Source of the DNA: Actinopolyspora erythraea
GTDB taxonomy: Bacteria > Actinomycetota > Actinomycetes > Mycobacteriales > Pseudonocardiaceae
Direction of reading: 5' to 3'
NCBI RefSeq assembly: GCF_002263515.1
Contig: NZ_CP022752.1
Span: 1,922,001 to 1,986,000 of the forward strand
DNA length: 64,000 nucleotides
Part shown: piece after piece, positions 32,682-59,428 of the stretch
Numbering within the stretch: position 1 is the stretch's first letter
Layout of the letters: each line of letters starts with the position of its first letter
The notes under the pieces: generated by a model
Databases searched by the model: none
Seen by the model: only the letters and a program-made list of their open reading frames with translations
Told to the model about the DNA's origin: nothing
Translations under genes and position numbers: made by a program

Positions 32682-32691
32682 CTCGTCCTCC

Positions 32692-33468
32692 TCACCGTGC
32701 GGACCAGCTCGGTGCCCGGCGTTCCGCGAACGCGCGGGCCCCTTCGGCGAAGTCCTCGGACCGCAGCAGCTCGCGGATCTCCCCACGTTGCGCTTCGAGG
32801 GCCCGCCGCTCGGACTCGTGTGCCGCCAGGCGGGAGATCCGCTTGGCGGCGGACACGGCCAGGGGCGCGTTCTCGGTCAGCCGCGCGGCCAGGTTGAGTG
32901 CCTCCTGCTCGGCCGCCCCGTCCGTCGTTACCCGGTTGACCAGTCCGAGCTCGGCCGCGCGCTCCGCCGTGATCGGGTCGCCGGTCAGTATCAGTTCCAT
33001 GGCCAGGTGGTAGGGGATTCTGCTCGGCAGGCGCGCGGCACCACCGCCGCCGGCGATCAGCCCGCGCTTGACCTCGGGCAGGGCGAACTTCGCGCCCGTG
33101 CCCGCCACGACGAGGTCGCAGGCCAGGGCCATCTCGAAGCCGCCACCCATCGCGTATCCTTCGACCGCCGCGATCAGCGGTTTGCCCGGTTCCCGCTCGG
33201 TGAGTCCCGCGAAGCCCGCTCCCTCGACGTCGGCCGAGTCGCCGTTGGCCGCGGCCTTGAGGTCCATGCCCGCGCTGAACACGCCCTCGGACCCGGTGAG
33301 GACGCCGACGCGCAGGCCCGGGTCCTCCTCCAGGCGCCGAACGGCGTCCGCGAGCCCGTGGGCCACCCGGGAGTCGACCGCGTTGCGGGCTCCGGGGCGG
33401 TCGATGGTCATCACGAGGGTGCGTTCGTGGGTGTCGGTACGCACCACGGGAGGTTCGCCTGGTGTCAT
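32692..33468 (-). CDS. Enoyl-CoA hydratase/isomerase (crotonase) family protein
   Basis: The 258-residue crotonase-fold protein has both oxyanion-hole elements (FSAGMDLKAA and EGYAMGGGFEMALACD) and the active-site region FALPEVKRGLIAGGGG with Glu in the usual place. It would hydrate or isomerise a 2-enoyl-CoA made by the acyl-CoA dehydrogenase of the operon. ATG 33468 lies 9 nt after GAGG and just beyond the stop of the CoA-transferase gene; GTG 33474 would overlap that stop. The carnitinyl-CoA dehydratase (CaiD) group is one alternative, since a CaiB-type gene is adjacent. Confidence 0.9.
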   Translation of the reverse strand: MTPGEPPVVRTDTHERTLVMTIDRPGARNAVDSRVAHGLADAVRRLEEDPGLRVGVLTGSEGVFSAGMDLKAAANGDSADVEGAGFAGLTEREPGKPLIAAVEGYAMGGGFEMALACDLVVAGTGAKFALPEVKRGLIAGGGGAARLPSRIPYHLAMELILTGDPITAERAAELGLVNRVTTDGAAEQEALNLAARLTENAPLAVSAAKRISRLAAHESERRALEAQRGEIRELLRSEDFAEGARAFAERRAPSWSAR

Positions 33469-33470
33469 GA

Positions 33471-34682
33471 TCACTCCTCGGAATCAGTCGACATCCGGGA
33501 CCCGCCGAGCACCTCGGCGGTGTGCTGGCCGGGACGAGGCGCGTGCCTGCGGATCGACGCCGGAGTGCGGGAGAACGTCGTCGGCACGCCGATCTGCCGG
33601 TAGCTTCCCTCGGTCGGGTGGTCGGCCACGTCCAGCAGGTGCCCCTCCCGCACGTAGGGGTCCGCGGTGGCTTCCTCCAGGCGCAGCACCGGTGCCACCG
33701 GGATGCTGTGCTTGGTGCCCACCTCGATCCATTCCGAGGTGCTCAGTTCGGGGGTCACCGATTCGATCAGCGCGGCCAGATCGGGCCCGTCCCGGCGCAC
33801 GTCGATGAACTCCCCGTTCACTCGCGGGTCCTCGGCCAGGTCGGGGCGTCCGGCGGCCGCGAACAGGTCGCGGAAGTTCTGCGGGGTGTACGGGATGATC
33901 ATGACGAACCCGTCCCGGCTGGGGCGCGCCCGGTGCCCCTCGTTGAGGGAGTTCGGGAAGCCGGTGGGGCCGAGCGGCGGGTCGAAGGTGTGGCCCTGCA
34001 GGTGCTCGACCATGTTGAACGAGATCAGGGTGTCGGCCATCGGGATCTCCACCCGCTGGCCCTCACCGGTGGCGCGCTGGTGCAGCAGCGCCGCCGTCGT
34101 CGAGTAGGCGATGGTCAGCGCGGTGATCTTGTCCGCGAGGATGCTGGGCAGCACGGCTGGCACGCCGAGGTCGTCGGCGCGGTGGGCCATGTCGATCATG
34201 CCGGAGGCCGCCTGCACCGTCTCGTCGTAGGCGGCCAGCTCGGCTCTGTCGGAGTCCGGGCGGAACCCCTGGGCGTGGGCGTAGACCAGGGCCGGGTTCC
34301 GCTCCGCGAGCGACTCGTAGTCCATCCCCAGCCGTCGCAGCGCACCGACCCGCATGTTGGTGATCAGCAGGTCGGCCCCGTCGATCAGCTCGAGAGCGTG
34401 CCGCCGTCCCTCCTCGTCCTTGAGGTCGAGCTCGACGCTGCGCTTGTTCCGGTTGACGTTGAGGTACAGCGGGGTCATCCCCGGCGAGCGGTAGGTCGTG
34501 CCGAGCCGGGCGCTGTCCCGCGGCGACTCGATCCTGACGACGTCGGCGCCGAGGTCCCCCAGTATCTGTGCCGCGTACGGCCCCATCACGACCGTGGACA
34601 TGTCGACTATCCGGACACCGTGCAGCGGTCCGGGGGCGACTTCCTCGTTGGTTCCCGCTTCGTGAGCGGTCGTCTGCCACAT
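33471..34682 (-). CDS. Class III CoA-transferase (CaiB/BaiF family)
   Basis: The 403-residue enzyme transfers CoA between carboxylic acids. The N-terminal LHGVRIVDMSTVVMGPYAAQ and ILGDLGADVVRIE segments are family hallmarks, NRNKRSVELDLK forms part of the CoA site, and LQGHTF...GPTGFPN and related C-terminal parts follow. The catalytic Asp expected near residue 170 is probably in SGMIDMAH. ATG 34682 has AGGAG upstream and an AT-rich leader, so it heads the operon with crotonase, decarboxylase family protein and two dehydrogenases. It would activate an organic acid as its CoA ester. Confidence 0.9.
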   Translation of the reverse strand: MWQTTAHEAGTNEEVAPGPLHGVRIVDMSTVVMGPYAAQILGDLGADVVRIESPRDSARLGTTYRSPGMTPLYLNVNRNKRSVELDLKDEEGRRHALELIDGADLLITNMRVGALRRLGMDYESLAERNPALVYAHAQGFRPDSDRAELAAYDETVQAASGMIDMAHRADDLGVPAVLPSILADKITALTIAYSTTAALLHQRATGEGQRVEIPMADTLISFNMVEHLQGHTFDPPLGPTGFPNSLNEGHRARPSRDGFVMIIPYTPQNFRDLFAAAGRPDLAEDPRVNGEFIDVRRDGPDLAALIESVTPELSTSEWIEVGTKHSIPVAPVLRLEEATADPYVREGHLLDVADHPTEGSYRQIGVPTTFSRTPASIRRHAPRPGQHTAEVLGGSRMSTDSEE

Positions 34683-44714: not shown

Positions 44715-44763
44715 TTGACGTGGCCGGGTGTAATCAGTCTACTGGGCGTACCGACTGGTCGGT
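44715..44763 (+). promoter_or_regulatory. Promoter of acyl-CoA synthetase gene with TetR-type operator (site 1)
   Basis: TTGACG (44715-44720), 17 nt, then TCTACT (44738-44743) gives a plausible sigma-A promoter. The palindrome ACCGACTGGTCGGT (44750-44763) covers the expected transcription start and ends 17 nt before the ATG. It matches, with one change, the operators before the TetR gene at 48280 and after it at 49003. Confidence 0.75.
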
Positions 44764-44780: not shown

Positions 44781-46445
44781 ATGTCCAGTGTCTATGACCA
44801 ACGCCCCTGGCTGGATCGCTACGCCGAGAACGAGCCCGCCGACATCACGCCGCCGTACGAGGATATGCTGTCCGTGCTGGCGGACACGCGTTCGCGGTTT
44901 CCCGAGCGGGTCGCGCTGACCTACTTCGGCACCGAGATCACGTATCGTGAGCTGGACGAGCTCGCCAACGGGGTGGCCCACCACCTCGCCGACAAGGGGT
45001 TCGGCGGTGGGGACCGCCTCGCGGTGTACCTGCAGAACGTTCCCCAGTTCGCAGTCGCCGTGCTGGCCGGGTGGAAGCTGGGCGGCATCGTGGTTCCGCT
45101 CAACCCCATGTACCGCTCCCACGAGCTGATCACCATCCTGGGTGACGCCCAGCCCGTCGCCGTGGTCTCCTCGGAGCGGGGCTGGCACGACGTGCTGGGA
45201 GAAGTCGCCTCCGCCAACGGCGTCACGGTCGCGCTCACCACCAGTGAGCTGGACCTGGCCGCCGAGCACGAGGGGACCCCGCTGGGCTCGCTGGAGCGCG
45301 ACCGCCCGGCGGAGACCGACGATCTCCTGGAAACGGCCACCGCCCGGCGTACGGCCACACCACCGACCGTCCGGGTGTACCCGGACGACATAGCGCTGCT
45401 GACCTACACCTCGGGAACCGGCGGCGCTCCGAAAGGCGCGACGAACACCCACCGCAACCTCAGCTTCAACACGCAGGCGTTCACGCGGCGCGCCGGTAGC
45501 GAAGAGGGCAGCGGTATGATCGCGCTGGCACCGCTGTTCCACATAACAGGTCTGGTGTGCCAGTTCGGCGCGGTGCTGGCGCTGGGAGGTCGCCTCGACC
45601 TCGTCTACCGCTTCGAACCGTCGGTGGTGCTGCGAGCGCTGCGCCGGTGGCGCCCGCGGTACATGATCGGTCCGTCCACGGCCTACACGGCGCTGATGAA
45701 CCACCCCGAGGCCAGTGCCGACGACTTCCGTTCGTTCGAACAGGTCTACGCGGGCGGTGCGCCGCTGCCTTCGGCCATGGTCGAGCGCTTCCGCGCCGAG
45801 TTCGGCCTCTACATCCGCAACGGCTACGGGCTCACCGAGACCACGGCCACGGCGACCTCAGTACCACCACACCTGGAGGCACCGGTGGACGAGGAGACCG
45901 GAACGATCAGCGTCGGTGTCCCGACGTTCAACTGCGTCCTGCGCGTGGTGGACGACGACGGGATGGACCTCCCGGTGCGGTCGGTCGGCGAGATCGTCGT
46001 GGAGGGGCCGATGGTGGTGCCCTCCTACTGGAACCGGCCGGAGCAGACCGAGGCGGCGTTGCCGGAGGGCCGGCTGTACACCGGGGACGTGGGGTTCATG
46101 GACGAACAGGGCTGGTTCTACGTCGTCGACCGGAAGAAGGACATGATCAACGCTTCCGGGTTCAAGATCTGGCCGAGAGAGGTAGAGGACGTGCTCTACT
46201 CCCACCCCTCCGTCCGGGAGGCGGCCGTGGTGGGAGTTCCCGACTCCTACCGGGGCGAGACGGTCCGGGCCTACGTCAGCCTGGTCCCCGGCCGAACCGC
46301 GACGGTGGAGGAACTCGCCGAACACTGCAAGCAGCGGTTGGCGGCCTACAAGTACCCGCGCGAGGTGGAACTGCTCGAAGAGCTGCCCAAGACCGCCACC
46401 GGCAAGATCCTCCGGCGGCGGCTTCGGGACGAGGCGCGCGGCTGA
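44781..46445 (+). CDS. AMP-dependent acyl-CoA synthetase (class I adenylate-forming)
   Basis: The 554-residue enzyme activates a carboxylic acid with ATP and CoA. Motifs are in order: P-loop LLTYTSGTGGAPKGA (about 210-225), GYGLTETT (about 350), YTGDVGFMDEQGWFYVVDRKKDMI (about 430-455) and the catalytic Lys in PKTATGKILRRRL at the C-terminus. It resembles medium-chain fatty-acid and 4-coumarate ligases. ATG 44781 follows GGAGGTG. It heads a unit with two SDR dehydrogenases and is preceded by operator site 1. In the proposed pathway it plays the part of LvaE. Confidence 0.92.
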   Translation: MSSVYDQRPWLDRYAENEPADITPPYEDMLSVLADTRSRFPERVALTYFGTEITYRELDELANGVAHHLADKGFGGGDRLAVYLQNVPQFAVAVLAGWKLGGIVVPLNPMYRSHELITILGDAQPVAVVSSERGWHDVLGEVASANGVTVALTTSELDLAAEHEGTPLGSLERDRPAETDDLLETATARRTATPPTVRVYPDDIALLTYTSGTGGAPKGATNTHRNLSFNTQAFTRRAGSEEGSGMIALAPLFHITGLVCQFGAVLALGGRLDLVYRFEPSVVLRALRRWRPRYMIGPSTAYTALMNHPEASADDFRSFEQVYAGGAPLPSAMVERFRAEFGLYIRNGYGLTETTATATSVPPHLEAPVDEETGTISVGVPTFNCVLRVVDDDGMDLPVRSVGEIVVEGPMVVPSYWNRPEQTEAALPEGRLYTGDVGFMDEQGWFYVVDRKKDMINASGFKIWPREVEDVLYSHPSVREAAVVGVPDSYRGETVRAYVSLVPGRTATVEELAEHCKQRLAAYKYPREVELLEELPKTATGKILRRRLRDEARG

Positions 46446-46473: not shown

Positions 46474-47229
46474 ATGAGCAAGCGGTTCGACGGTCGAGTG
46501 GCGATCGTGACCGGAGCCAGCAGGGGAATCGGTTTCGGCATCGCGCAGCGGCTGGTGTCGGAGGGGGCCAGGGTGTGCCTCACCGCCCGCAAACCCGAAT
46601 CCCTGGCGGAGGCGGTCGAGAGCCTCGGAGGTGCCGAGCACGCGCTCGCCGTCGCGGGCAAGGCCGACGACGCCGAGCACCAGGCCGACGCGGTCAGCCG
46701 CACCCTGGACACCTTCGGCCGGGTCGACATGCTGGTCAACAACACCGGTATCAATCCCGCTTACGGACCGCTGATCGAGCTCGACCACGGTGTCGCCCGC
46801 AAGACCTTCGAGGTCAACGTGCTGGCTTCGTTGGCGTGGACGCAGCTGGTCCACCGCGAGTGGATGTCGGCCAACGGCGGAGCGGTGCTCAACGTCACCT
46901 CGCTGGCGGGCTCGAACCCGGCTCCCGGCATCGGCTACTACGGGGCCACCAAGGCGATGCTCAGCCACATCACCCGTGAACTGGCCGTCGAGCTAGGTCC
47001 GGGCGTGCGGGTGAACGCGGTGGCCCCCGCCGTGGTCAAGACGCAGTTCGCCACCGCGCTCTACCAGGACAACGAGGACGAGGTGGCGGGGCAGTACCCG
47101 ATGCGCAGGTTGGGGGTTCCCTCCGACATCGCCGGGGCCGCCGCCTACCTGCTCTCGGACGAGGCCTCCTGGGTCACCGGTCAGATCCTGACGCTGGACG
47201 GCGGGGTGTCACTCACCGGGGGGATGTGA
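46474..47229 (+). CDS. SDR-family oxidoreductase (FabG-like)
   Basis: The 251-residue short-chain dehydrogenase has the cofactor motif TGASRGIG, LVNNTG in place of NNAG, Ser in NVTSLAG, and YYGATK with the catalytic Tyr and Lys. It ends in the FabG-like WVTGQILTLDGG. It would interconvert a hydroxy- and an oxo-acyl group. It starts 28 nt after the acyl-CoA synthetase stop, so it is in the same transcript and probably acts on the CoA ester made there; an LvaD-like 4-oxo reduction is possible. Confidence 0.9.
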   Translation: MSKRFDGRVAIVTGASRGIGFGIAQRLVSEGARVCLTARKPESLAEAVESLGGAEHALAVAGKADDAEHQADAVSRTLDTFGRVDMLVNNTGINPAYGPLIELDHGVARKTFEVNVLASLAWTQLVHREWMSANGGAVLNVTSLAGSNPAPGIGYYGATKAMLSHITRELAVELGPGVRVNAVAPAVVKTQFATALYQDNEDEVAGQYPMRRLGVPSDIAGAAAYLLSDEASWVTGQILTLDGGVSLTGGM

Positions 47230-47365: not shown

Positions 47366-48133
47366 ATGCGGCTCGCCGGCTCCGTGGCCGTGATCACCGG
47401 TGCGGGTAACGGTATAGGCGCTTCCATGGGACGTGAGTTCGCCTCCCGTGGCGCGAGCGTGGTCGTCAACGACATCGATGCCGGGGCGGCGCGAGACGTG
47501 GCCGCGGAGATCGGTGGCATCGCCGTGCCCGGGGACGCCGCCAGCGACTCGGGAGCGCGTGAGCTCGTTGGCGGGGCGTTGGAAGCCCACGGCAGGATAG
47601 ATCTGTTCTGTGCCAACGCCGGTGTCGCCACCGCCGGTGGTCCGGAAGCCCCGGACGAGGACTGGGACCGGGCGTGGCAGCTCAACGTCATGTCGCACGT
47701 GCGGGCGGCGCGGGCGGTGCTGCCGCACTGGCTGGAAGCGGGCGGCGGACACTTTCTGGCCACGGTCTCGGCGGCGGGGTTGCTCACCATGCTCGGTGCC
47801 GCGCCCTACTCGGTGACCAAGCACGCTTCCCTCGGCTTCGCCGAGTGGTTGTCGGTGACCTACGGCGATCGCGGAATCACGGTCCAGGCGCTGTGCCCGC
47901 AGGGTGTGCGGACCGGAATGCTCGCCGACAGCGGTGAGACCGGTCGGCGACTGCTCGACGCCAATGCCGTCGAACCCGCGGAGGTGGCGGAGGTGGTCGC
48001 CGATTCGCTGGGTGGTGAGTTCCTGATCCTGCCGCACCCCGAGGTGGCCAAACGCTACGCCCAGCGTGCGAGTGATCCGGACCGGTGGTTGGCTGGGATG
48101 CGTTCGCTGCGCGGCCAGGTCGAGCGGTCCTGA
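47366..48133 (+). CDS. SDR-family oxidoreductase, second copy
   Basis: The 255-residue classical SDR has TGAGNGIG for cofactor, CANAGV, Ser in VSAAG and YSVTKHA with catalytic Tyr and Lys. The C-terminal part differs from FabG and resembles SDRs of lipid and steroid pathways. ATG 47366 follows AAGGAGG; the longer frame upstream is not SDR-like. A 136-nt gap separates it from the first SDR on the same strand, so it may be in the same operon. Substrate unknown. Confidence 0.88.
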   Translation: MRLAGSVAVITGAGNGIGASMGREFASRGASVVVNDIDAGAARDVAAEIGGIAVPGDAASDSGARELVGGALEAHGRIDLFCANAGVATAGGPEAPDEDWDRAWQLNVMSHVRAARAVLPHWLEAGGGHFLATVSAAGLLTMLGAAPYSVTKHASLGFAEWLSVTYGDRGITVQALCPQGVRTGMLADSGETGRRLLDANAVEPAEVAEVVADSLGGEFLILPHPEVAKRYAQRASDPDRWLAGMRSLRGQVERS

Positions 48134-48279: not shown

Positions 48280-48293
48280 ACCGACCGGTCGGT
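48280..48293. promoter_or_regulatory. TetR-type operator before its own gene (site 2)
   Basis: ACCGACCGGTCGGT is a perfect 14-bp palindrome 40 nt upstream of the TetR start at 48334. The same sequence recurs at 49003-49016 and, with one change, at 44750-44763. Its form ACCGNNCGNNCGGT resembles the core reported for the TetR-family phenylacetate regulator PaaR of corynebacteria. Confidence 0.78.
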
Positions 48294-48333: not shown

Positions 48334-48963
48334 ATGGCACCGAGCTCGTTCACCGAGGAAGGCGGCACCGCCGAGCGAACGCAACACAGTGAGCAGGAGC
48401 CGGTGCCGCAGCGGTTGTTGAGCGCGGCCACCCGGCTGTTCGCCGAGCAGGGCTTCGAGACGACCTCGGTGCAACAGATCGTGGACGCGGCAGGTGTCAC
48501 GAAGGGGGCCATGTATCACTACTTCGGCTCCAAGGACGACCTGCTCTACGAGATCTACGCCCGCGTGCTGCGGGTTCAGATGGCCCGGATGGAGCAGGCC
48601 GCGGACAGCTCGGAATCAGTCGAGCGGCGGCTCAGGGCGGTGGCCGCGGACGTCGTGGTGACCACGGTCGCCTACCTGGACGACACCGTGATCTTCTTCC
48701 GCTCCATGCACCTGCTGCACCCGGACAAGCAGGCCGAGGTGCGCGCGCAACGCCGGCGCTATCACGAAAGGGTGAGGCAACTGATCGAGGAAGGGCAACG
48801 GACCGGAGTGTTCCGCACGGACCGTTCTCCCGAACTCGTGGTGGATTTCTTCTTCGGCGCCGTGCACCACCTGGGCACCTGGTACCGCAGGGACGGGCCG
48901 ATGAGTGGGCAGCAGGTGGGCGAGCAGTTCGCGGACCTGCTGCTGGACGCGCTGCGCGCCTGA
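48334..48963 (+). CDS. TetR-family transcriptional regulator, proposed regulator of the acyl-CoA regulon
   Basis: The 209-residue protein has an N-terminal helix-turn-helix (RLLSAATRLFAEQGFETTSVQQIVDAAGVTKGAMYHYFGSK, about 27-67) and an all-helical ligand-binding domain. It is similar in form to KstR2/FadR-like regulators of acyl-CoA metabolism, which bind CoA esters. ATG 48334 follows GGGAGGAAG; open frame further upstream is not family-like. Operator site 2 lies just upstream and a second perfect copy just downstream, so it is probably autoregulated and controls the flanking genes. Confidence 0.88.
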   Translation: MAPSSFTEEGGTAERTQHSEQEPVPQRLLSAATRLFAEQGFETTSVQQIVDAAGVTKGAMYHYFGSKDDLLYEIYARVLRVQMARMEQAADSSESVERRLRAVAADVVVTTVAYLDDTVIFFRSMHLLHPDKQAEVRAQRRRYHERVRQLIEEGQRTGVFRTDRSPELVVDFFFGAVHHLGTWYRRDGPMSGQQVGEQFADLLLDALRA

Positions 48964-49002: not shown

Positions 49003-49016
49003 ACCGACCGGTCGGT
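49003..49016. promoter_or_regulatory. TetR-type operator between TetR gene and quinone oxidoreductase gene (site 3)
   Basis: ACCGACCGGTCGGT is identical to site 2. It lies 40 nt after the TetR stop and about 255 nt before the next start at 49271, so it may mark a promoter with a long leader that includes the hairpin at 49181-49218. No gene is supported between 48964 and 49270. A further palindrome GTTCGATCGTCGAAC lies at 49163-49177. Confidence 0.7.
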
Positions 49017-49270: not shown

Positions 49271-50257
49271 GTGCAGTCACTCAGAGTATCCGAGCTGGGC
49301 GATCCACGCGACGTGCTCGAGCTCGTCGAGTCACCGACCCCGGAGCCGGGCCCCGACCAGGTTCTGGTCCGGGTCTCCGCCTGTCCGGTCAACTTTCCCG
49401 ACGCGTTGATGTGTCGAGGCCAGTACCAGGTCAAACCGGATACGCCGTTCACCCCCGGCGTCGAGCTCTGTGGTGAGATAGTCGAGGCCGGTTCCGGGGT
49501 CACGGGGCTGGGGACGGGCGAACGGGTCATCGGGGCCGGCGCCGTCCCCGCCGGCGGGTTCGCGGAGTACGCCCTCATGGACGCCACGCGTACCTTCCCC
49601 GCTCCCGAGGCTCTTTCCGACGCCGAGGCCGCCTCGTTGTTCATCGGTTACCAGACCGGATGGTTCGGCCTGCACCGCCGTGCCGCGCTGCGGGAGGGGG
49701 AGACGTTGCTCGTGCACGCCGCCTCCGGTGGTGTGGGCAGCGCCGCGATACAGCTGGGGAAGGCGGCCGGAGCCACCGTGATCGGCGTCGTCGGGGGCCC
49801 GGAGAAGGCCGAGGTGGCCCGGAAGCTCGGGGCCGACGTGGTCGTGGACCGGTACACCGAGGACTTCGTGAGCGTGGTCAAGGAGCGGACCGGTGGTAGA
49901 GGGGCCGACGTGATCTACGATCCGGTCGGCGGTGAGACCTACGAGCGCTCCACCAAGTGCGTCGCCTTCGAGGGGCGCATCCTGATCGTCGGGTTCGCCG
50001 GTGGCACCATCCCCACCCCGGGGCTGAACCACGCGTTGATCAAGAATTACTCGATCGTCGGGCTGCACTGGGGGCTCTACAACGAGCGTGACCCGGCTGC
50101 CGTCCGCCGGGCGCACGACGAGCTGTGCCGGATGGCGAATGAGGGGGGAGTGTCGCCGCTGGTCAGTGAGCGGGTCGCGCTCCCGGAACTGCCCGGGGCC
50201 ACGCAGCGAGTCGCCGACGGGCACACCGTCGGGAGGGTGGTCTACGTCAACGCGTGA
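49271..50257 (+). CDS. NADPH:quinone oxidoreductase-like MDR protein
   Basis: The 328-residue protein belongs to the medium-chain dehydrogenase/reductase superfamily, zinc-free quinone oxidoreductase branch. The N-terminal GroES-like domain has CPVNFPDALMCRGQYQ and PGVELCGEIVEAG; the Rossmann domain has HAASGGVGSAAIQLGKAAGA and DVIYDPVGG. Catalytic zinc ligands are absent. It would reduce an enone or quinone with NADPH and may act as an enoyl reductase. Translation begins at GTG 49271 behind GGAGGTG. Confidence 0.9.
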   Translation: MQSLRVSELGDPRDVLELVESPTPEPGPDQVLVRVSACPVNFPDALMCRGQYQVKPDTPFTPGVELCGEIVEAGSGVTGLGTGERVIGAGAVPAGGFAEYALMDATRTFPAPEALSDAEAASLFIGYQTGWFGLHRRAALREGETLLVHAASGGVGSAAIQLGKAAGATVIGVVGGPEKAEVARKLGADVVVDRYTEDFVSVVKERTGGRGADVIYDPVGGETYERSTKCVAFEGRILIVGFAGGTIPTPGLNHALIKNYSIVGLHWGLYNERDPAAVRRAHDELCRMANEGGVSPLVSERVALPELPGATQRVADGHTVGRVVYVNA

Positions 50258-50425: not shown

Positions 50426-50878
50426 TCAGAACATCACGCGGGAGAGCACCTCGGCGACGCAGGCAGGTTTCTCCTCACCGTCTATCTCCACCGTGGTGCT
50501 CATGGTGAGTTGCAGCGCGTCACCGGATTCGGCGACGTCGGCGAGGCGGGAGTGCGCGCGCACGCGGCTGTTCACCTTGACCGGGTTCGGGAACCGAACC
50601 TTGTTCAATCCGTAGTTGATCACCATGCGAGCCCCCCGCACACCGTAGATCTCGGCGTTGAGCGCGCTGAGCATGCTCAGGGTCAGGAACCCGTGCGCGA
50701 TCGTGGTCCCGAACGGGCCGGCCGCCGCCCGTTCGGAATCGACGTGGATCCACTGGTGGTCCCCCGTCGCCTCGGCGAACTTGTCGATCATCTCCTGGGT
50801 GACCGTCCACCACTGGCTGCTTCCGAGGTCGGTGCCGTTGGCGGCGTGCAGTTCCTCGGCACTGCTGAACACGGGCAT
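50426..50878 (-). CDS. MaoC-like (R)-specific enoyl-CoA hydratase
   Basis: The 150-residue hotdog-fold protein has the hydratase motif: ATGDHQWIHVD with Asp and His, then GPFGTTIAHGFLTLSM. It hydrates trans-2-enoyl-CoA to (R)-3-hydroxyacyl-CoA or does the reverse. It follows the acyl-CoA dehydrogenase by 123 nt on the same strand, so it is probably the last gene of the HAD-kinase-dehydrogenase operon. It could hydrate the enoyl-CoA that the dehydrogenase makes. Confidence 0.9.
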   Translation of the reverse strand: MPVFSSAEELHAANGTDLGSSQWWTVTQEMIDKFAEATGDHQWIHVDSERAAAGPFGTTIAHGFLTLSMLSALNAEIYGVRGARMVINYGLNKVRFPNPVKVNSRVRAHSRLADVAESGDALQLTMSTTVEIDGEEKPACVAEVLSRVMF

Positions 50879-51001
50879 GTTCGACTCCTCCTGATCGTTT
50901 CCTGCTGTGGTTCCGGCGGGGACGGCGGCACGGCAACGTGCGGTGCCGCCGCGTCGGGGTGCTCTCCGTCGGGAGCGCGCTTCGGAGAGGGGTGTAGCCG
51001 A

Positions 51002-52210
51002 TCACCGGTACCGCTTGAGCTCGCGGCGAGCCAGCGAGCGGCGGTGCACCTCGTCCGGGCCGTCGACCAGGTGCAGCGTTCTGGCGTGCGCGTACAGGTT
51101 GGCCAGCGGGGTGTCCTGGCTGACCCCGGCACCCCCGTGCGCCTGAATGGCACGGTCGATCACGGTGGTCGCCATCTCCGGCACGGCCACCTTGATCGCC
51201 TGGATCTCGGTGTGCGCACCTTGGTTGCCGACGGTGTCCATCAGCCAGGCCGTTTTCAGCACCAGCAGGCGGACCGACTCGATCCGCACCCGGGCCTCGG
51301 CGATCCAGTGCTGGACCACGCCCTGGTCGGCCAGCGGACGTCCGAACGCCTCGCGGTCCGTGACCCGACGGCACATCAGCTCCAGCGCGCGCTCGGCCAT
51401 CCCGATGGCCCGCATGCAGTGGTGGATGCGTCCCGGTCCCAACCTGGCCTGGGCGATGGCGAACCCCTCGCCCTCCCCGGAGATGATGTTGGCCGCTGGG
51501 ACCCGCACCTCGTTGAAGTCGATCTCGGCGTGGCCGCCGTGGTCACCGTCGGTGTAGCCGAACACGTGCATGCCGCGCCGGATCTCGACTCCGGGGGTGT
51601 CCACCGGAACGAGGATCATGCTCTGCTGCCGGTGCCGCTCGGCCTCGGGGTCCGTCTTGCCCATGACGATCAGCACGCGGCAGTTCGGGTTCATCGCCCC
51701 GGACGACCACCACTTGCGTCCGGTGATGACGTACTCGTCGCCCTCCCTGCGGATGCGAGTGGCGATGTTGTTCGCGTCCGAGGAGGCGACGTCGGGTTCG
51801 GTCATGCAGAACGCGGAGCGGATCTCGCCGCGCAGCAGCGGTTCCAACCACTCCTCGCGCTGCCGCTGGTCGCCGAACATGGCGAGTACTTCCATGTTCC
51901 CCGTGTCGGGGGCCGCGCAGTTCATGGCGGGCGGGGCCAGGTGCGGACTGCGTCCCGTGATCTCGGCGAGCGGGGCGTACTGCAGATTGGTCAGTCCGGC
52001 ACCGTGGTCGCCGGGCAGGAACAGGTTCCAGAGCCCGCGGCTACGTGCCTCCCGCTTGAGGTCCTCGACGACAGGTGGCACCGACCAGGGATCGTCGCTC
52101 CCGTTCGTCTGCCGCTCGAATTCCTCCTCGGCCGGATGAATGTGGCTGTCCATGAAGGAATTGATCTCCGAGCGGAGGCTCTCGGTCCGCTCATCAAAAG
52201 TGAAATACAT
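51002..52210 (-). CDS. Acyl-CoA dehydrogenase of the ACAD10/ACAD11 type
   Basis: The 402-residue flavoprotein has [16 protein letters not shown] and [20 protein letters not shown] as FAD/substrate segments and ends in [34 protein letters not shown]. Where ordinary acyl-CoA dehydrogenases have catalytic Glu-Gly in this last loop, it has Asp-Gly (VDGPDEVH), as in the ACAD10/11 group and LvaC. The ATG follows directly on the stop of the kinase gene. In that group the enzyme works on 4-phosphorylated acyl-CoA; the same is inferred here from the neighbouring kinase. Confidence 0.9.
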
Positions 52211-53251
52211 TCATTTCTCCGGAATGTTCGCGAGTCCCTGCTCGATCAACGGTTCGACCAGTGCTCCGACGTGTTCGAAGCCTTCGCCGACGGTCTGGTT
52301 CTGCGTGAACCGGTAGTGGATTCCCTCCAGGATCACCGCGATCTTGAAGAACCCGAAAGCCACGTACCAGTCGAGTTCGGAGGTGTCGATCCGGTTGAGC
52401 TCGGCGTAGTGCCGCAGCATCTCGCGCGCACCGGGGAAGCCGAATTCCGGTCCCACCCCCTTGGCGACGGGGTTGTCAGCTATTCCGCTGAAGCCCTCCC
52501 AGTAAACGACCAGTAGCCCCAGGTCGGTGAGTGGATCACCGAGTGTGGCCATCTCCCAGTCCAGCACCGCCCGAATGTCGCAGTCCTGGTCGACCAGCAC
52601 GTTGTCCAACCTGTAGTCACCGTGCACGATCGCGACCCTGCCGTTCGTGGGTACGCCCTCGGCCAGTCGGTCCCGCAGTTCGGTGACCCCGCGCAGTTCC
52701 CGCTGCTGTGAGGCGGCCAGCTGTTTGCTCCAGCGGCGGAGCTGGCGTTCCAGGAAGCCGTCGGGCTTGCCGAAGTCGCCGAGTCCGACCGACTCGGGGT
52801 CTACCGCGTGCAGCCGCGCCAGGACTTCGACCAGTCGCATCGCCAGGTCCCGGCGCTGTTCGGTGCTCAGTGCCCGGGTCTGCTCCTCACTGCGGTAGGC
52901 CGTACCGGAGACCAGGTCCATGATGAAGAACGGGGCGCCGAGCACCTGCTCGTCCTCGCAGAGCAGGTAGGTGCGCGGCACCGGTACGTCGGTGTCGGCC
53001 AGCGCGCTGAGCACCCGGTACTCGCGGCTCATGTCGTGCGCGGTGGCAAGCACGTGTCCCAGCGGTGGGCGCCGCAGCACCCAGTGCCGCGTACCGTCGC
53101 CGATCACGTAGGTGAGGTTGGAGCGTCCGCCCTGGATCAGCTCTCCGGACAGCTCGCCCTCGACCAGGCCGGGATGCTCCCGTTCCAGGTAGGCGCGCAG
53201 CCGGTCGAGGTCCAGCCCCGGTGGTGGCTGTGCTGTCGTGTCGTCGGCCAT
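52211..53251 (-). CDS. APH-family phosphotransferase (LvaA/ACAD11 kinase type)
   Basis: The 346-residue protein has an aminoglycoside-phosphotransferase/choline-kinase fold. The catalytic loop is VHGDYRLDNVLVD and the metal-binding motif LDWEMATLGDPLTDLG. Similar domains are fused to the dehydrogenase in ACAD10/11, and LvaA of Pseudomonas putida phosphorylates 4-hydroxyacyl-CoA. ATG 53251 has AGGAG upstream and lies next to the HAD stop at 53254; the dehydrogenase follows with no gap. A 4-hydroxyacyl-CoA kinase is more likely than an antibiotic-resistance enzyme. Confidence 0.9.
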   Translation of the reverse strand: MADDTTAQPPPGLDLDRLRAYLEREHPGLVEGELSGELIQGGRSNLTYVIGDGTRHWVLRRPPLGHVLATAHDMSREYRVLSALADTDVPVPRTYLLCEDEQVLGAPFFIMDLVSGTAYRSEEQTRALSTEQRRDLAMRLVEVLARLHAVDPESVGLGDFGKPDGFLERQLRRWSKQLAASQQRELRGVTELRDRLAEGVPTNGRVAIVHGDYRLDNVLVDQDCDIRAVLDWEMATLGDPLTDLGLLVVYWEGFSGIADNPVAKGVGPEFGFPGAREMLRHYAELNRIDTSELDWYVAFGFFKIAVILEGIHYRFTQNQTVGEGFEHVGALVEPLIEQGLANIPEK

Positions 53252-53253
53252 GG

Positions 53254-53916
53254 TCACTCCTGCTGGTCGGCGGTATCGAGGTCGGGGACGAGTTCGGCGA
53301 TTCGGGCGCGGGTGCGTGTCGCGTCCCGGTGCAGGATCGTGTGCATACCGAGCTCCTCGGCGGTGGCGACGTTGGCCCTGACGTCGTCGACGAACAGTGC
53401 CCGCTCGGGCGCCACCTCCAGTCGTTCCAGCGCCAGTCGGTAGATCCTGGGGTCCGGTTTGCGCATACCGACCTCGCCGGAGACGACCACGTGGTCGAAC
53501 ATTCCGCTCAGTCGTTGCCACGGATAGCTGTTGCCCCAGCTGTTGGACAGCAGGCCCGTTCGCCTGCCCGAGCGGCGCAGCATCGTGACCAGCCGCATCA
53601 TCTCCTCGTCCGGTCGCATGAACGAGAACATCCGGGAGAGCAGACCCTCGGCCACGACCGGTCGCCCGTCACGTTGCCGCAGTCGCTCGGCGAGCATCCT
53701 GTCGAACTCCTCCAGGGAGAGCTCGCCCGTCTCGAGCCGGTGGATCGGGGTGTTGTCCGGGGCGTCGTGCCCGACCCACTCCTTCAGGACGGCGGAGAAG
53801 CTCTCCGGCCGGATCCCCTCGGCGTGTGTCCAGGACTCGACGGCAGTCCGTCCCGGTGTGGTCAGCACTCCGCCGTAGTCGAACACCACGGTGGTTATGG
53901 CGGGTTCCGTCCGCAT
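53254..53916 (-). CDS. HAD-superfamily hydrolase (ACAD10 N-domain-like)
   Basis: The 220-residue protein is a HAD subfamily IA hydrolase: nucleophile Asp13 in VVFDYGGVL, Ser/Asn in LLSNSWG, Lys in GMRKPDPRIY, and VDDVRANV with the acidic pair. Animal ACAD10 carries such a domain before its kinase and dehydrogenase domains, the same order as the three genes here. ATG 53916 lies 7 nt after TATGCT, so the mRNA is probably leaderless; upstream in-frame codons are not family-like. Its natural substrate may be a misphosphorylated intermediate, which is inference. Confidence 0.88.
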   Translation of the reverse strand: MRTEPAITTVVFDYGGVLTTPGRTAVESWTHAEGIRPESFSAVLKEWVGHDAPDNTPIHRLETGELSLEEFDRMLAERLRQRDGRPVVAEGLLSRMFSFMRPDEEMMRLVTMLRRSGRRTGLLSNSWGNSYPWQRLSGMFDHVVVSGEVGMRKPDPRIYRLALERLEVAPERALFVDDVRANVATAEELGMHTILHRDATRTRARIAELVPDLDTADQQE

Positions 53917-53923
53917 GGTGCGG

Positions 53924-53942
53924 AGCATACCGACTAGCCGGT
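53924..53942 (-). promoter_or_regulatory. Promoter of the HAD-led operon with TetR-type operator variant (site 4)
   Basis: On the minus strand the -10 TATGCT (53924-53929) is overlapped by a palindrome whose core is ACCGACTAGCCGGT (53929-53942), flanked by GCAT/ATGC. It keeps the ACCG...CGGT arms of sites 1-3 with a different centre. A repressor bound here would block RNA polymerase. Confidence 0.65.
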
Positions 53943-55036: not shown

Positions 55037-56593
55037 TCAGGCGGCGTCCTCCTTGAGCATGTCGGAACATTTCTCGCCGATCGCCATGGTGGTGATGTTC
55101 GGGTTGACCGCCACCAGGAAGGGCATCGCCGACGCGTCGGCCACCCGCAGACCGTGCACACCCTTCACCCGCAGCCGGGCGTCCAGCGGCGCGTTCGGGT
55201 CGTCTCCCATCGGAACCGAGGCCGCCGGGTGGTACACCGTGTTGTGCGTGGCACGGAGGTAGTCGGCGATCTCGTCGTCGGAGCGCACGTCCGGGCCGGG
55301 GTGCAGCTCGGCCCCCGCCCACTCGCGCATCGCGGGCTGCCCCACGATCTCGCGTGCCAGCTTGATGCCGTGAGTCATCACCCGGATGTCGTGTGGATCC
55401 GTGAAGTACCGGGGGTCCACGGCCGGCTTGTCCCGGAAGTCCCTGCTGCGCAGCCGCACCGTTCCCACCGAGCGGCTCCGCGTCACGTTCGGAGTCAGGC
55501 AGAACCCGTTCTCGGTGCTGGGGTAGCCCTGGCGCACGGTGTGCATGTCGAACGGCACCGAACCGAAGTGGAACATCAGGTCGGGCCGGTCCAGCCCAGG
55601 CTCGGTGGTCGTGAAGATGCCGATCTCCCACCACTGGGTGGAGTCCTGCACCATGGGCTTGGCGGCGTCCCAGCCGATGACTCCCTCGGGGTGATCCTGC
55701 AGGTTGGAACCCACGCCGGGCGAGTCGACCAGCACGTCGACCCCGACCGAACGCAGGTGCTCGGCCGGACCGATGCCGGACAGCATCAGCAGTTTCGGGG
55801 TGTCGATGGCCCCGGAGCTCAGCACGACCTCCCGGCGGGCGGTGACCCGCTTGGTCCGGAGGCCGTCGGGGGCCAGGTAGTCCACGCCGGTGGCTCGGTT
55901 CCCGTCGAAGACCACCTGCTTCGCCCTGGCGTCGGTACGCACCTGCAGGTTCGGACGGTTGCCCATGATCGGATGCAGGTACGACACCGAGGAGGACGCC
56001 CGCGTGCCGTCCTCGCGGGCGTTGATCTGGAACCAGTTGGCACCGTGGGTGACCGTCCGACCCGAGTTGAACTCCGTGATCGGGATGCCGGTCTGCTCAC
56101 AGGCCTGGAGCAGCGCACTGCCGCAGGGATCGTGCGGCGGGACGTTGCGTAGCCGCACGGGACCCTCGTGGCCGTGGTGCTCTCCCGGCGACTCGTTGTT
56201 CTCCAACCTGCGGTACAGCGGGAAGACGTCCGCGGCGCCCCAGCCCGTGGCACCCATCGACTCCCACTCGTCGAGGTCCTCGGCCGGAGCCCAGAAGGCG
56301 ATGCAGGAGTTGTGCGAGGAGCAGCCGCCGAGCACTTTCGCCCGTGCGTGTCGCATGAACGAGTTGCCGCTCTCCTGCGGTTCGATCGGGTAGTCCCAGT
56401 CGAATCCGGACTCCAACAGCGACATCCACTGCTTCAGCTCCAGGACCTCGCGCTTGTCCTCGTCGGTGGGGCCCGCTTCCAGCAGGCACACCGTGACCTC
56501 CGGGTCCTCCGACAGTCGTGCGGCGAGTGCGGCACCTCCACTGCCGCCACCCACGACGACGTAGTCGAAAGCGGTCGCCTCATCGCTCATCAT
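55037..56593 (-). CDS. codA: Choline oxidase (GMC oxidoreductase)
   Basis: The 518-residue flavoenzyme oxidises choline to betaine aldehyde and on to glycine betaine. It has the FAD-binding YVVVGGGSGGAALAARL near residue 11, the GGCSSHNSCIAFWAP segment with His94, the residue that links FAD covalently in the Arthrobacter enzyme, and YHPAASVPMG plus NPNITTMAIG with the catalytic His and Asn. The close match to the choline-oxidase signature favours oxidase over BetA dehydrogenase. ATG 56593 and ATG 56590 are adjacent, with GGAG upstream. It follows the aldehyde dehydrogenase gene by about 200 nt. Confidence 0.9.
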   Translation of the reverse strand: MMSDEATAFDYVVVGGGSGGAALAARLSEDPEVTVCLLEAGPTDEDKREVLELKQWMSLLESGFDWDYPIEPQESGNSFMRHARAKVLGGCSSHNSCIAFWAPAEDLDEWESMGATGWGAADVFPLYRRLENNESPGEHHGHEGPVRLRNVPPHDPCGSALLQACEQTGIPITEFNSGRTVTHGANWFQINAREDGTRASSSVSYLHPIMGNRPNLQVRTDARAKQVVFDGNRATGVDYLAPDGLRTKRVTARREVVLSSGAIDTPKLLMLSGIGPAEHLRSVGVDVLVDSPGVGSNLQDHPEGVIGWDAAKPMVQDSTQWWEIGIFTTTEPGLDRPDLMFHFGSVPFDMHTVRQGYPSTENGFCLTPNVTRSRSVGTVRLRSRDFRDKPAVDPRYFTDPHDIRVMTHGIKLAREIVGQPAMREWAGAELHPGPDVRSDDEIADYLRATHNTVYHPAASVPMGDDPNAPLDARLRVKGVHGLRVADASAMPFLVAVNPNITTMAIGEKCSDMLKEDAA

Positions 56594-56797
56594 TGCTCTC
56601 CTGTTCTGTGCGCGCCGCCGTGATCCGCCCGGGACGGAACCGGAGCCACGGACGGCCCGGAACTCACCGTCTAGCCCTCGGCGGGCAGCGCCACGGGCGT
56701 CGGCGTCGGGACTCGAAGTGGTTGCGGATCGGTGGGCGAGCAGTGCGCTCGCAGCCCGTTGCTCGCCCGCCGTGAGCCGGTGCCTGGCGGCCGGACC

Positions 56798-58345
56798 TCA
56801 CGCGTTCGAGTCAGGTCCGGCGAACCAGTACTGCGGGCCGGGGCGGAGGTTCTGGTAAACGTGCTTGGCCTCCTGGTACTCCCGGAGCCCGCCGCCACCG
56901 AGCTCCCGCCCGATGCCGGACTGCTTGAAACCGCCCCACTCGGCCTGGGGCAGGTAGGGGTGGAAGTCGTTGATCCACACGGTGCCGTGCCGCAGTTTCC
57001 CGGCCACTCGCTGCGCCTTGCTCACGTCCGAGGTGAACACCGCACCGGCCAGTCCGTAGTGCGTCTCGTTCGCGATGCGCACAGCGTCGTCCTCGTCGTG
57101 GAACCGTTCCACGGTCAGTACCGGACCGAAGGACTCCTCGGTCACGGCGGTCGAGCCCTGCCGCACCTCGTCGAGCACGGTGGGGAGGTAGAAGTAGCCG
57201 GACTCCAGCCCGGTTTCCTTCGGCCGTGCTCCGCCGGTGCGCAGCACCGCCCCCTCGGCCGTCGAACGCGCCACGTAGTCCTCGACCTTGGCGCGGTGCT
57301 CGGCGGAGATCAGCGGTCCGGTCTCGGCCGTCTCGTCGAAGGGGCCGCCGAGTTTGATCAGTTCGGCGCGCCGCACGATCTCGTCGACCAGGGCGTCGTG
57401 GATCTCGTCCTGCACGATCAGTCGGGCGCCCGCGGAGCAGACCTGGCCGGAGTGCAGGAAGATGGCGGTCAGCGCGTAGTCCACGGCGGTCTCGAAGTCC
57501 GCGTCGGCGAACACCACGTTCGGGTTCTTCCCGCCCAGTTCGAGGGCGACCCGCTTCACGGTCGCGGCCGCCGAGGCGGCGATGGCCCGTCCGGTCTGCA
57601 GGCCGCCGGTGAACGAGACCAGGTCGACGTCGGGGTGCTCGGCCAGCGGCGCCCCGGTCTCGGCGCCGTTGCCGAGTACCAGGTTGCCAACTCCCGCCGG
57701 CATTCCCGCTTCCCGGAGGGCGCGCATCAGCAGCATCGCGGTGCTCGGGGTCAGCTCGCTCGGCTTGAGCACGAAGGTGTTGCCGGCCGCGAGCGCGGGA
57801 GCGACCTTCCAGGCCACCTGCAGCAGCGGGAAGTTCCAGGGGGTGATCAGGCCGCACACGCCGACGGGTTCGTAGTCGACCCTGCTGATGGCCTCGGTGG
57901 AACCGGTGTTGACGACGTGTCCGGCGTCGGTTCCGGCGATCTTGCCGTAGTAGCGGAAGCACGCGGCGATGTCGTCCATGTCGTAACCGCTTTCGACCAG
58001 CCGCTTGCCGGTGTCCAGCGATTCGGCCCGTGCGAACTCCTGCCGGTCGCGCACCAGGATGTCGCTCACCCGCAGCAGCAGGTCCCCGCGTTCCCAGGGC
58101 GAGGTCGCCGACCACGTTCCCTCGTCGAAAGCGGCCCTGGCGGCCGCGATCGCACGCTCGGTGTCGGTGCGGTCCCCCTCCGAGACCGTGATGACGGGGG
58201 AACCGTCGGCGGGGCAGCGGATCTCGCGGGTTCTCCCGGCCGAGGCCGCCTGCCACACACCATCGATGAACAGGGTGCCCGAGGCGGTCGGATCTCCTGT
58301 GCGTGTGCTGACCGACTCGTTCGGCGGGGCGTGGGTCTGCGACAT
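56798..58345 (-). CDS. betB: Betaine-aldehyde dehydrogenase
   Basis: The 515-residue NAD(P)-dependent aldehyde dehydrogenase has ITPWNFPLLQVAWKVAPALAAGN, LELGGKNPNVVFADAD with the general-base Glu, and GQVCSAGARL with the nucleophile Cys. It would convert betaine aldehyde to the osmoprotectant glycine betaine, as supported by the adjacent choline oxidase and divergent TetR gene. ATG 58345 has AGGGA upstream; the longer open frame is not family-like. Other small aldehydes are possible substrates. Confidence 0.9.
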   Translation of the reverse strand: MSQTHAPPNESVSTRTGDPTASGTLFIDGVWQAASAGRTREIRCPADGSPVITVSEGDRTDTERAIAAARAAFDEGTWSATSPWERGDLLLRVSDILVRDRQEFARAESLDTGKRLVESGYDMDDIAACFRYYGKIAGTDAGHVVNTGSTEAISRVDYEPVGVCGLITPWNFPLLQVAWKVAPALAAGNTFVLKPSELTPSTAMLLMRALREAGMPAGVGNLVLGNGAETGAPLAEHPDVDLVSFTGGLQTGRAIAASAAATVKRVALELGGKNPNVVFADADFETAVDYALTAIFLHSGQVCSAGARLIVQDEIHDALVDEIVRRAELIKLGGPFDETAETGPLISAEHRAKVEDYVARSTAEGAVLRTGGARPKETGLESGYFYLPTVLDEVRQGSTAVTEESFGPVLTVERFHDEDDAVRIANETHYGLAGAVFTSDVSKAQRVAGKLRHGTVWINDFHPYLPQAEWGGFKQSGIGRELGGGGLREYQEAKHVYQNLRPGPQYWFAGPDSNA

Positions 58346-58816
58346 AGTGAGTTTCCCTGTCGAGGCTGCTTGCTTGTTCACCGGACCGTGCTTCACCCGG
58401 CCGCCGGGCCCCGTGACCGGGAACGCCGGGCGGAGTCACGGGGGCGGGGCGGGCCCGACCCTCGCGTGTCCGTCGTGCCGGGATCGGCGGGCAGTTCTCG
58501 TCGTGGTGCGGCTGTCCGGTGCGGTCACCGTTCCCGTGGTCGCGCGCCCGGCGGGCCGGGCGGCACGCGTCTCGACGGCTGCCGGGGCCGAACTCTAGCA
58601 GTTTTTGTGTACAGATGTACACATACTTGTTCCGGTGGTGGCCCGACTCATCTTTGTCGAGGCTGTGACCAGGGAACAAATGGAATTCGTGAGGTAGGTC
58701 GCATCGCCGTTCCGGGGGTTCGTGGCAAGGTGTGATCCGCTCGAAGGGCCGGAACCGCCGAGGTGTTCCGGTGGGCACCAGCTGTGATCGAACCGACGGA
58801 GGGCGCACGAGAGGCG
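58346..58816. other. Divergent promoter region of betB and the TetR gene
   Basis: No gene is supported in this 471-bp stretch. It contains an 18-bp palindrome (58606-58623) and, just left of it, a minus-strand -10-like TAGAGT (58592-58597), which would give betB a leader of about 240 nt. Confidence 0.5.
58606..58623. promoter_or_regulatory. 18-bp operator-like palindrome between betB and TetR gene
   Basis: TGTGTACAGATGTACACA has 8-bp arms that are perfect complements around GA. It lies next to promoter-like sequences in the divergent region and is the best candidate binding site of the TetR protein encoded at 58817. Confidence 0.72.
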
Positions 58817-59428
58817 ATGACCACGACGGACTCCGAGTCGCTCCGCGCGGCGGCCGACGAGCGGCGGGGCAGGAACGGCGGCTCGCGCAAGGACCCGGGG
58901 CGGCGTGAGCGGATCGCCAGGGCGGCGATCGGCGTTGTCGCCGAACGTGGCATCGAGAAGGTCACCCATCGTGCCGTGGCCGCCGCCGCGGGTGTTCCGC
59001 TCGGTTCCACCACCTACCATTTCGCCACACTGGACGATCTGCTCGCGATGGCGCTGCGTCAGGCGGCCCAGGACAACGTCGCGGAACTGCGCGAGTGGGC
59101 GGAGGGCATGGACTCCGGTGTCGATCTGCCCGCGGTGTTGACCGACCTGGTGCTGCGCTACCTCGGCCCCGAGCGGGAACGTACCGTGGTGGAGCACGAA
59201 CTCTACGTCGCCGCGCTGCACCGGCCGGCCCTGCGCTCCGCCAGCACCGAGTGGGACGCGGCGTTGCGTGACCTTTTCACCGCCTACACCGACGAGGTGT
59301 CGGGCAAGATGCTCGCGGCCGTGTTCTGCGGTCTGCTGTGGCAGGGAGTCGTTCGCGAACCGCTACCAGATCGCGACGAGATCGAGATGATCTTCCGGCG
59401 TGCCATCGGCGGCAACTGTTCCGGCTGA
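58817..59428 (+). CDS. TetR-family regulator (BetI-like)
   Basis: The 203-residue protein has a TetR helix-turn-helix (RRERIARAAIGVVAERGIEKVTHRAVAAAAGVPLGSTTYHFATLDDLL, about 31-78) and a C-terminal regulatory domain. It is divergent from the choline-betaine genes and probably represses them, in the manner of BetI. ATG 58817 has GAGAGG 5 nt upstream; GTG 58763 would add 18 residues. The gap 59429-59697 downstream holds no supported gene. Confidence 0.85.
   Translation: MTTTDSESLRAAADERRGRNGGSRKDPGRRERIARAAIGVVAERGIEKVTHRAVAAAAGVPLGSTTYHFATLDDLLAMALRQAAQDNVAELREWAEGMDSGVDLPAVLTDLVLRYLGPERERTVVEHELYVAALHRPALRSASTEWDAALRDLFTAYTDEVSGKMLAAVFCGLLWQGVVREPLPDRDEIEMIFRRAIGGNCSG

Follow-up and report, generated by a model that had tools for sequence, protein, structure and literature searches.

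What might separate genes for a HAD-family protein, an APH-type kinase and an acyl-CoA dehydrogenase (ACAD) do together in a bacterium when they follow each other in the domain order of the animal fusion protein ACAD10? The question is raised by a window of 64,000 nucleotides (nt; positions 1,922,001 to 1,986,000 of contig NZ_CP022752.1) of Actinopolyspora erythraea, a salt-loving soil bacterium whose genome is complete (5.24 Mb, one contig). An earlier reading made from the letters alone (here, the sequence-only reading) had noticed the three genes and a MaoC-type hydratase gene next to them, and had drawn a route from a 4-oxo or 4-hydroxy acid to a 3-hydroxyacyl-CoA. Overall, our analysis indicates that the window probably carries genes for the catabolism of 4-hydroxyacyl-CoAs that form a regulon under TetR control and include the counterpart of the ACAD10 HAD as a separate protein. 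The basis is gene order, homologies, catalytic and substrate-contact residues and the conservation of an operator-like site, from which we infer the reactions, the substrate, the binding and effector of the TetR regulator and the role of the HAD.

The dehydrogenase and its kinase

Against the PDB, the window ACAD scored 493, 491 and 489 bits with ACAD11 entries 8v3u, 8v3v and 2wbi and 453 bits with 4hr3, compared with 155 bits for the best conventional ACAD in that database. Judged by the residue numbering in PMC12440821, the first two of these structures are of mouse ACAD11; the same paper gives the third as human. A tree of 72 rows splits 65 ACAD10/11-like rows, including 4hr3, from seven conventional ACADs encoded elsewhere in the Actinopolyspora genome with a Shimodaira-Hasegawa-like approximate likelihood ratio test (SH-aLRT) value of 100, a split to be read with the warning that the conventional branches are long. 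The conventional rows (L002 to L008) are seven of the 13 other ACAD matches in the genome, all of which score at most 170 bits against 925 bits for the self-match; L085, which carries the full residue set described below, was excluded from this tree, and the near-identical congeners L071 to L073 were left out of both the ACAD and the kinase trees. Both are quick trees without bootstrap, and LvaA and LvaC are not among their rows. The genome holds a single ACAD of the ACAD10/11 type and a single match to the window kinase (E ≤ 1e-3).

All six ACAD11 positions that were compared (H597, R626, R631, H634, R637 and D753) are kept in the window ACAD. According to Rashan et al. (PMC12440821), R626, H634 and R637 touch the 4-phosphate, D753 serves as the base, and R631 is a feature of ACADs in general. 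In the same study, replacing R626, H634 or R637 non-conservatively had the most disruptive effects, and a mutant of the catalytic Asp halts at the phospho-intermediate. The phosphate-contact equivalents in the window enzyme are R256, H264 and R267. Its catalytic Asp, D383, corresponds to D753 and lies in VDGPDEVH, the Asp-Gly that had caught the eye earlier in place of the usual Glu-Gly. All four of R626, H634, R637 and D753 occur together in 64 of 66 family rows, the exceptions (L044 and L051) carrying Tyr at H634, and in none of the seven conventional rows. The position of D753 is Asp in every one of the 66 family rows; the conventional rows have Glu (six) or Gly (one). The score, the phylogeny against ACAD10/11 and the published substrate-contact residues thus support the assignment of this enzyme to the ACAD10/11 type, with a predicted function in phosphate elimination from 4-phosphoacyl-CoA.

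The structures nearest to the kinase are 9o56 (215 bits), 3dxp (198 bits) and ACAD11 (172 bits). Its catalytic Asp and Asn (D212 and N217, equivalent to D220 and N225) and the proposed CoA contacts, R169 (equivalent to R176) and R76 beside the alpha-C Glu, an Arg that is numbered R86 in the published description and counted as 84 here, are all kept. They do not single out a sub-family, since almost every one of the 78 kinase rows has them. In the kinase tree, the ACAD10/11 kinases join 3dxp, L080 (Methylobacterium) and P0030 in a group of 14 rows (SH-aLRT, 99).

Fusions of the two enzymes also occur. P0001, a kinase-ACAD fusion of 731 amino acids (aa), groups with actinobacterial rows and, when the window kinase and ACAD are joined, shares 59% identity with them over 96%; P0003 is a shorter fusion of the same order, and P0004 and P0008 have the reverse order. 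All four stand among bacterial rows in the ACAD tree. Such fusions support joint action of kinase and ACAD. In a separate observation, the kinase-ACAD pair on a plasmid of Streptomyces sp. NBC_00388 (L074) has AfsA-like and ketosynthase genes nearby, which may form a cluster of the butyrolactone type.

Gene order and the HAD protein

HAD, kinase and ACAD are separate successive genes in the domain order of animal ACAD10, with MaoC next, and their coordinates were confirmed. The description of the genes as having almost no gaps between them holds for the first three, with 2 nt between the HAD stop and the kinase ATG (53251) and 0 nt between the kinase stop and the ACAD ATG (52210). The sequence-only reading had ended its segment at 53942, which is the end of an operator-like palindrome (53929 to 53942) just outside the HAD start.

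This order is recurrent. In a survey of 41 genomes (our own and 40 relatives; cut-offs of E ≤ 1e-120 for ACAD, 1e-60 for kinase and 1e-25 for HAD), ACAD was found in 36, kinase in 34 and HAD in 25. Kinase lies directly 5' of ACAD in 24 of the 36 ACAD genomes (15 genera) and HAD directly 5' of kinase in 17 of the 25 HAD genomes (8 genera); HAD has a kinase or ACAD no more than 2.5 kb away in 20 of these 25 genomes and is unlinked in five, some of them fragmented assemblies. Both kinds of adjacency exceed chance. A second count was anchored on HAD, using the best 80 of 569 named loci, which are not mutually independent and some of which end at contig ends; the nearest kinase of at least 100 bits was counted at each. 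Kinase followed by ACAD on the same strand lies downstream of HAD at 43 of the 80 loci, in 35 of them directly (gap of <300 nt; 14 genus labels, some of them metagenome-assembled genomes) and in eight with a larger gap; four more loci have a kinase with no such ACAD seen. All 47 counted kinases are downstream of HAD and on the same strand. Among these best 80, the closest named HADs are from Actinopolyspora alba (80%) and A. biskrensis (66%).

Flanking genes were read at 35 of 41 ACAD places, three of which end at contig ends, and homologues of the SDR, QOR (quinone oxidoreductase), MaoC and TetR genes accompany the kinase-ACAD pair in several genera. A plasmid of Tsukamurella (L076) has, in one run, genes for thiolase, SDRs, QOR, HAD, FabG, MaoC, kinase, three ACADs, a phosphotriesterase and a ligase. 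A different arrangement, in which the kinase comes before HAD and the nearest 1.5 kb or so contain no ACAD, was seen in other families at L096, L100, L101 and L105 (4 of 25 kinase loci across the phylum).

The homology of the window HAD to that of ACAD10, implied by the earlier comparison of gene and domain order, is borne out by identity to the animal proteins and by a reciprocal search of the genome. The protein is 28 to 36% identical to nine animal HAD-kinase-ACAD proteins (E of 5e-18 to 8e-28 in a database of 19 proteins), and with the HAD of Mytilus ACAD10 as the query the operon HAD is the best of nine genome matches, at 82 bits versus 35 bits for the next. One animal protein (P0119) is named ACAD11 in its source; it has a HAD domain and was treated as ACAD10-like. 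The nucleophile Asp is kept in all of 30 HAD rows, and the second position of the DxD motif is Gly in 29 and Cys in one.

For the HAD of ACAD10, Paquay et al. (PMC11342911) describe an incomplete DxD motif, phosphatase activity that was negligible (data not shown there) and a restraining effect on the kinase, and they report that its Asp-to-Ala mutant raises kinase output. The window HAD may act in the same way as a regulator on the kinase, an assignment that we hold tentatively. That it is instead a true phosphatase, clearing stalled 4-phospho-acids or other phosphate esters, is a serious possibility that falls somewhat short of probable and would be compatible with the proposed pathway. An alignment of 12 HADs shows no variation at the motif residues (nucleophile Asp, Ser, Lys and Asp-Asp), and the best solved relative by sequence is the N-terminal part of bifunctional epoxide hydrolase 2. 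Furthermore, Escherichia coli YihX, annotated as an alpha-D-glucose-1-phosphate phosphatase, reads D-L-G at this motif; the idea that D-x-G proves a phosphatase inactive was rejected because this enzyme shares it. What speaks against a phosphatase is the published behavior of the ACAD10 domain, both its negligible activity and the effect of its Asp-to-Ala mutant.

Relative to animal ACAD10, the window set has the same three domains in the same order, a HAD with D-x-G (D-x-C in one row) and the same ACAD substrate-contact residues and Asp base. However, ACAD10 is a single fusion, whereas the window has three genes beside a TetR operator-like site, and the window kinase and ACAD come from the actinobacterial branch. 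The animal ACAD10/11 kinases (SH-aLRT, 99) and ACADs (87, not starred and less firm) group outside the actinobacterial clade. Direct descent of ACAD10 from the window operon was therefore rejected, and the shared order is apparently not due to common descent. Among the best 120 of 8,000 scored matches, the HAD-kinase-ACAD fusions with an organism name are all animal. ACAD11 and P0001 share kinase-then-ACAD order and the same residues with the window but are fused and have no HAD.

Another known system of this kind includes LvaD, which is an SDR. It is the lva operon of Pseudomonas putida, which likewise combines a kinase, an ACAD and a CoA synthetase in one operon (PMC11342911, PMC12440821); the residues reported as unique to ACAD10/11 and LvaC are present in the window ACAD. 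The lva operon differs in having no HAD homologue (PMC12440821). The window is of a known kind, that of lva and ACAD10/11, and varies it with a free-standing, operator-linked ACAD10-type HAD-kinase-ACAD set. Among the titles and abstract openings of the top papers listed from the open-licence PubMed Central literature, we found no bacterial HAD-kinase-ACAD operon, no PfmR as a 4-hydroxyacyl-CoA regulator, nothing on an Actinopolyspora acyl-CoA dehydrogenase and nothing relevant on fadE36.

An operator-like palindrome and the Thermus PfmR regulon

Four genes (synthetase, TetR, QOR and HAD) each have the palindrome ACCGACYRGTCGGT in front of them, the HAD copy with one mismatch. Upstream of HAD it is present in nine of nine aligned rows, each with one mismatch. 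A looser pattern, ACCGACYRGYCGGT, with one mismatch allowed gave nine strand-matches in the window, at the four places and at 57044, versus 0.48 expected. In the entire genome, the palindrome has eight places, four of them within the 9.2-kb cluster; the base composition predicts about 0.5 forward matches, and the reversed-pattern control gave none. The motif was discovered in this cluster, and tests outside it therefore matter more. The 80 HAD loci contain 40 sites with one mismatch allowed (reversed control, 1), and at 32 loci a site lies within 450 nt upstream of HAD (reversed control, 0). These comprise 23 of the 35 direct HAD-kinase-ACAD loci, seven of the eight with divergent HAD and ACAD and two of the 25 with neither partner. 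The proposal that the operon is co-regulated with the synthetase/SDR run is supported by this shared operator-like site, which would extend the regulon to the TetR and QOR genes.

A further copy lies 80 nt upstream of an unlinked gene for an NADPH enone reductase, whose nearest relatives are curcumin reductase (below the cut-off) and then leukotriene B4 12-hydroxydehydrogenase. Of 30 loci of this gene, all 10 from congeneric genomes and one from another genus have an exact site, and the other 19 have none. The link of this reductase to the operator suggests 4-oxo or 4-hydroxy enal or enoate chemistry upstream of the pathway. A second paralogue of the enone reductase exists (e.g., G000:C1:696197). 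Another copy, at G000:C1:1824895 (L197, near 6896), falls within the 3' end of a gene for an AMP ligase and is followed by genes for a FabG-type SDR and a conventional ACAD. Two further places are about 400 nt before a nucleoside transporter gene and inside an open reading frame with no Pfam match.

The TetR regulator scored 92.8 bits with PDB entry 3vpr, the aligned letters of which read as TTHB023, the PfmR of Thermus. The consensus and operon of PfmR have been published, and the regulon takes its name from phenylacetate and fatty acids (PMC7022988). An exact ACCGACCGGTCGGT lies in the TTHB023 promoter; in the window as well, a PfmR homologue occurs together with the operator sequence of PfmR before its own gene and before the pathway genes. 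The PfmR operon (positions 38 to 7747 of L230, from Thermus thermophilus pTT27) has SDRs, an AMP-binding protein, MaoC, a phosphotransferase that shares 29% of its residues with the window kinase along 222 aa, and an ACAD, TTHB015, that is 36% identical to the window ACAD and has all six residues; its other ACAD, TTHB022, is without the set. It differs in having no HAD among its listed genes and in being published as a system of phenylacetate and fatty-acid metabolism. The presence of a kinase and a full-residue ACAD suggests that the Thermus PfmR regulon is open to reinterpretation, with a substrate other than its namesake.

Features of the window are collected in Table 1. Two other groups of genes lie nearby. 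From 29649 to 34682 on the minus strand, a second acyl-CoA run was read from open reading frames only: ACAD, 3-hydroxyacyl-CoA dehydrogenase, an acetoacetate-decarboxylase-like protein, enoyl-CoA hydratase and a CaiB-type CoA-transferase, followed by LysR. Genes at 55037 to 59428 encode a choline-dehydrogenase-like GMC oxidoreductase (below the NCBIfam cut-off) and, by reading, an aldehyde dehydrogenase and a TetR protein; they are perhaps for glycine-betaine synthesis, which would fit a halophile.

Table 1. Genes and operator-like sites of the candidate regulon (window positions)
Feature	Position	Strand	Basis
HAD-family protein, ACAD10-HAD-like, motif I D-Y-G	53254..53916 (possible longer start 53928)	-	PF00702, homology, synteny
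APH-type kinase, predicted 4-hydroxyacyl-CoA kinase, 346 aa	52211..53251	-	PF01636, residues, tree
ACAD10/11-type dehydrogenase, predicted 4-phosphoacyl-CoA phosphate-eliminating enzyme, 402 aa	51002..52210	-	Score, tree, residues
MaoC-type hydratase, predicted enoyl-CoA hydratase, 150 aa	50426..50878	-	Domain label
AMP-binding acyl-CoA synthetase	44781..46445	+	Domain label
SDR 1	46474..47229	+	Domain label, flank comparison
SDR 2	47366..48133	+	Domain label, flank comparison
TetR-family regulator, homologue of Thermus PfmR (TTHB023)	48334..48963	+	34% identity over 188 aa
PIG3-like NAD(P)H:quinone oxidoreductase (QOR)	49271..50257	+	Match below NCBIfam cut-off
Palindrome ACCGACTGGTCGGT	44750..44763		17 nt before synthetase ATG (44781); 6/6 aligned rows
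Palindrome ACCGACCGGTCGGT upstream of TetR gene	48280..48293		Pattern search
Palindrome ACCGACCGGTCGGT between TetR and QOR genes	49003..49016		254 nt before QOR start used
Palindrome ACCGGCTAGTCGGT (minus strand, one mismatch)	53929..53942		Directly upstream of HAD start

A candidate 4-hydroxyacyl-CoA pathway and its alternatives

In the proposed pathway, the synthetase would convert a 4-oxo or 4-hydroxy acid to its CoA thioester, and an SDR would reduce 4-oxo to 4-hydroxy where needed. The kinase would then phosphorylate the 4-hydroxyl, and the ACAD, with Asp383 as the base, would eliminate phosphate to give a 2-enoyl-CoA in a reaction in which FAD is redox-active and the net change is redox-neutral. 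MaoC would hydrate this product to a 3-hydroxyacyl-CoA for beta-oxidation. The HAD, as the counterpart of the N-terminal domain of ACAD10, would most likely limit net 4-phosphoacyl-CoA, as a slow phosphatase or via the kinase. The TetR protein would repress the transcripts via ACCGACYRGTCGGT and would probably be released by an acyl-CoA of the pathway. Enzyme classes, order and co-regulation lend support to the route drawn in the sequence-only reading.

Several observations weigh against this reading. The gap between ACAD and MaoC is 123 nt, so the earlier remark on gaps does not extend to MaoC. The kinase, which had been expected to branch with the ACAD10/11 kinases, groups instead with actinobacterial rows; this placement means that it shares the broad family with ACAD10/11 but not the sub-branch. 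APH-family kinases phosphorylate many things. No directly adjacent kinase of this type was found in 12 of the 36 ACAD genomes, and of the 80 HAD loci eight have only a divergent ACAD and 25 have neither partner nearby. The palindrome was near HAD at none of the eight loci with a spaced HAD and kinase-ACAD and at none of the four kinase-only loci. Since the motif was found in this cluster, its density in the window is not independent evidence. Ten named genomes (A. alba and nine of other genera) have zero to five exact places, but reversed controls reach zero to three, so exact copies alone are not decisive there. Finally, among PDB entries the TetR protein scores highest with 3dcf (93.8 bits), just ahead of PfmR.

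The kinase-ACAD pair might carry out the same chemistry not on linear 4-hydroxy acids but on a hydroxyacyl-CoA that is bulky or cyclic, whether terpenoid, steroid-like or derived from a lactone; we regard this as improbable. Sister operons (L041, L043, L047, L048, L052, L056 and L076) do add two further ACAD genes, the first of which encodes a protein closest to Tcur3483 and then to PDB entry 4x28, both of which we take to be steroid-CoA ACADs, and in L076 and L047 a gene of the phosphotriesterase family (best PDB match, 4if2), some members of which are lactonases, adjoins the pair. However, the window operon lacks such extra genes, and searches of its genome gave neither the extra ACAD (E ≤ 1e-30, with no positive control) nor the phosphotriesterase (E ≤ 1e-50). 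Two narrower candidates were rejected: gamma-lactone catabolism via the phosphotriesterase, the gene for which is present in 13 of 41 genomes, in five of 10 congeneric ones about 9 kb from ACAD, and in our own genome not at all; and a steroid-type ACAD pair, which has no match in our own genome (no positive control).

An ordinary beta-oxidation cluster, with a fatty-acyl ACAD, an unrelated kinase and phosphatase and no phosphorylated acyl-CoA, would be consistent with the generic ACAD, APH and HAD labels given by Pfam and with the lack of any NCBIfam equivalog at cut-off for the operon proteins. It is very doubtful in view of the Asp base and full phosphate-contact set, which are absent from the seven conventional ACADs aligned, the kinase-ACAD linkage and fusions and the lack of activity of ACAD10/11 on ordinary acyl-CoAs in a published assay (PMC12440821).

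In Burkholderia cenocepacia, negative control of paaA requires the repeat ACCGACCGGTCGGT and has been ascribed to PaaR (PMC2770484). The operator site alone therefore does not name the pathway, a further point against a 4-hydroxyacyl-CoA regulon, and together with the namesakes of the PfmR regulon it could suggest a TetR protein sensing phenylacetyl-CoA and genes for aromatic acid breakdown. This is highly improbable, as the PfmR operon itself carries a kinase and an ACAD10/11-type ACAD and none of the genes inspected at the operator places, those of the window and ten scanned proteins from the four places outside it, belongs to the paa ring-degradation set (no genome-wide search for paa genes was made).

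A bolder version of the TetR-controlled 4-hydroxyacyl-CoA regulon, which we consider speculative and unlikely as a whole, is that it is dedicated to oxidized lipids of the 4-oxo/4-hydroxy-alkenal and 4-hydroxy-acid type. The enone reductase (prostaglandin-reductase family) and the PIG3-type reductase would saturate the enone, the SDRs would reduce the ketone, the synthetase, kinase, ACAD and MaoC would finish the conversion and the HAD would limit the phospho-intermediate; the Thermus PfmR regulon would be the same pathway. If so, 4-hydroxyacyl-CoA catabolism could be recognized in different phyla by one and the same TetR/operator pair.

In many actinomycetes, HAD, kinase and ACAD are separate co-directional genes, and each can therefore be deleted, purified and recombined. 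This bears on the HAD of ACAD10, for which little phosphatase activity has been reported yet restraint of the kinase has been, and which could be approached alone in bacteria. The shared operator-like site provides a testable regulon and brings into it an enone reductase encoded elsewhere in the genome, a hint of the chemistry that comes before the pathway.

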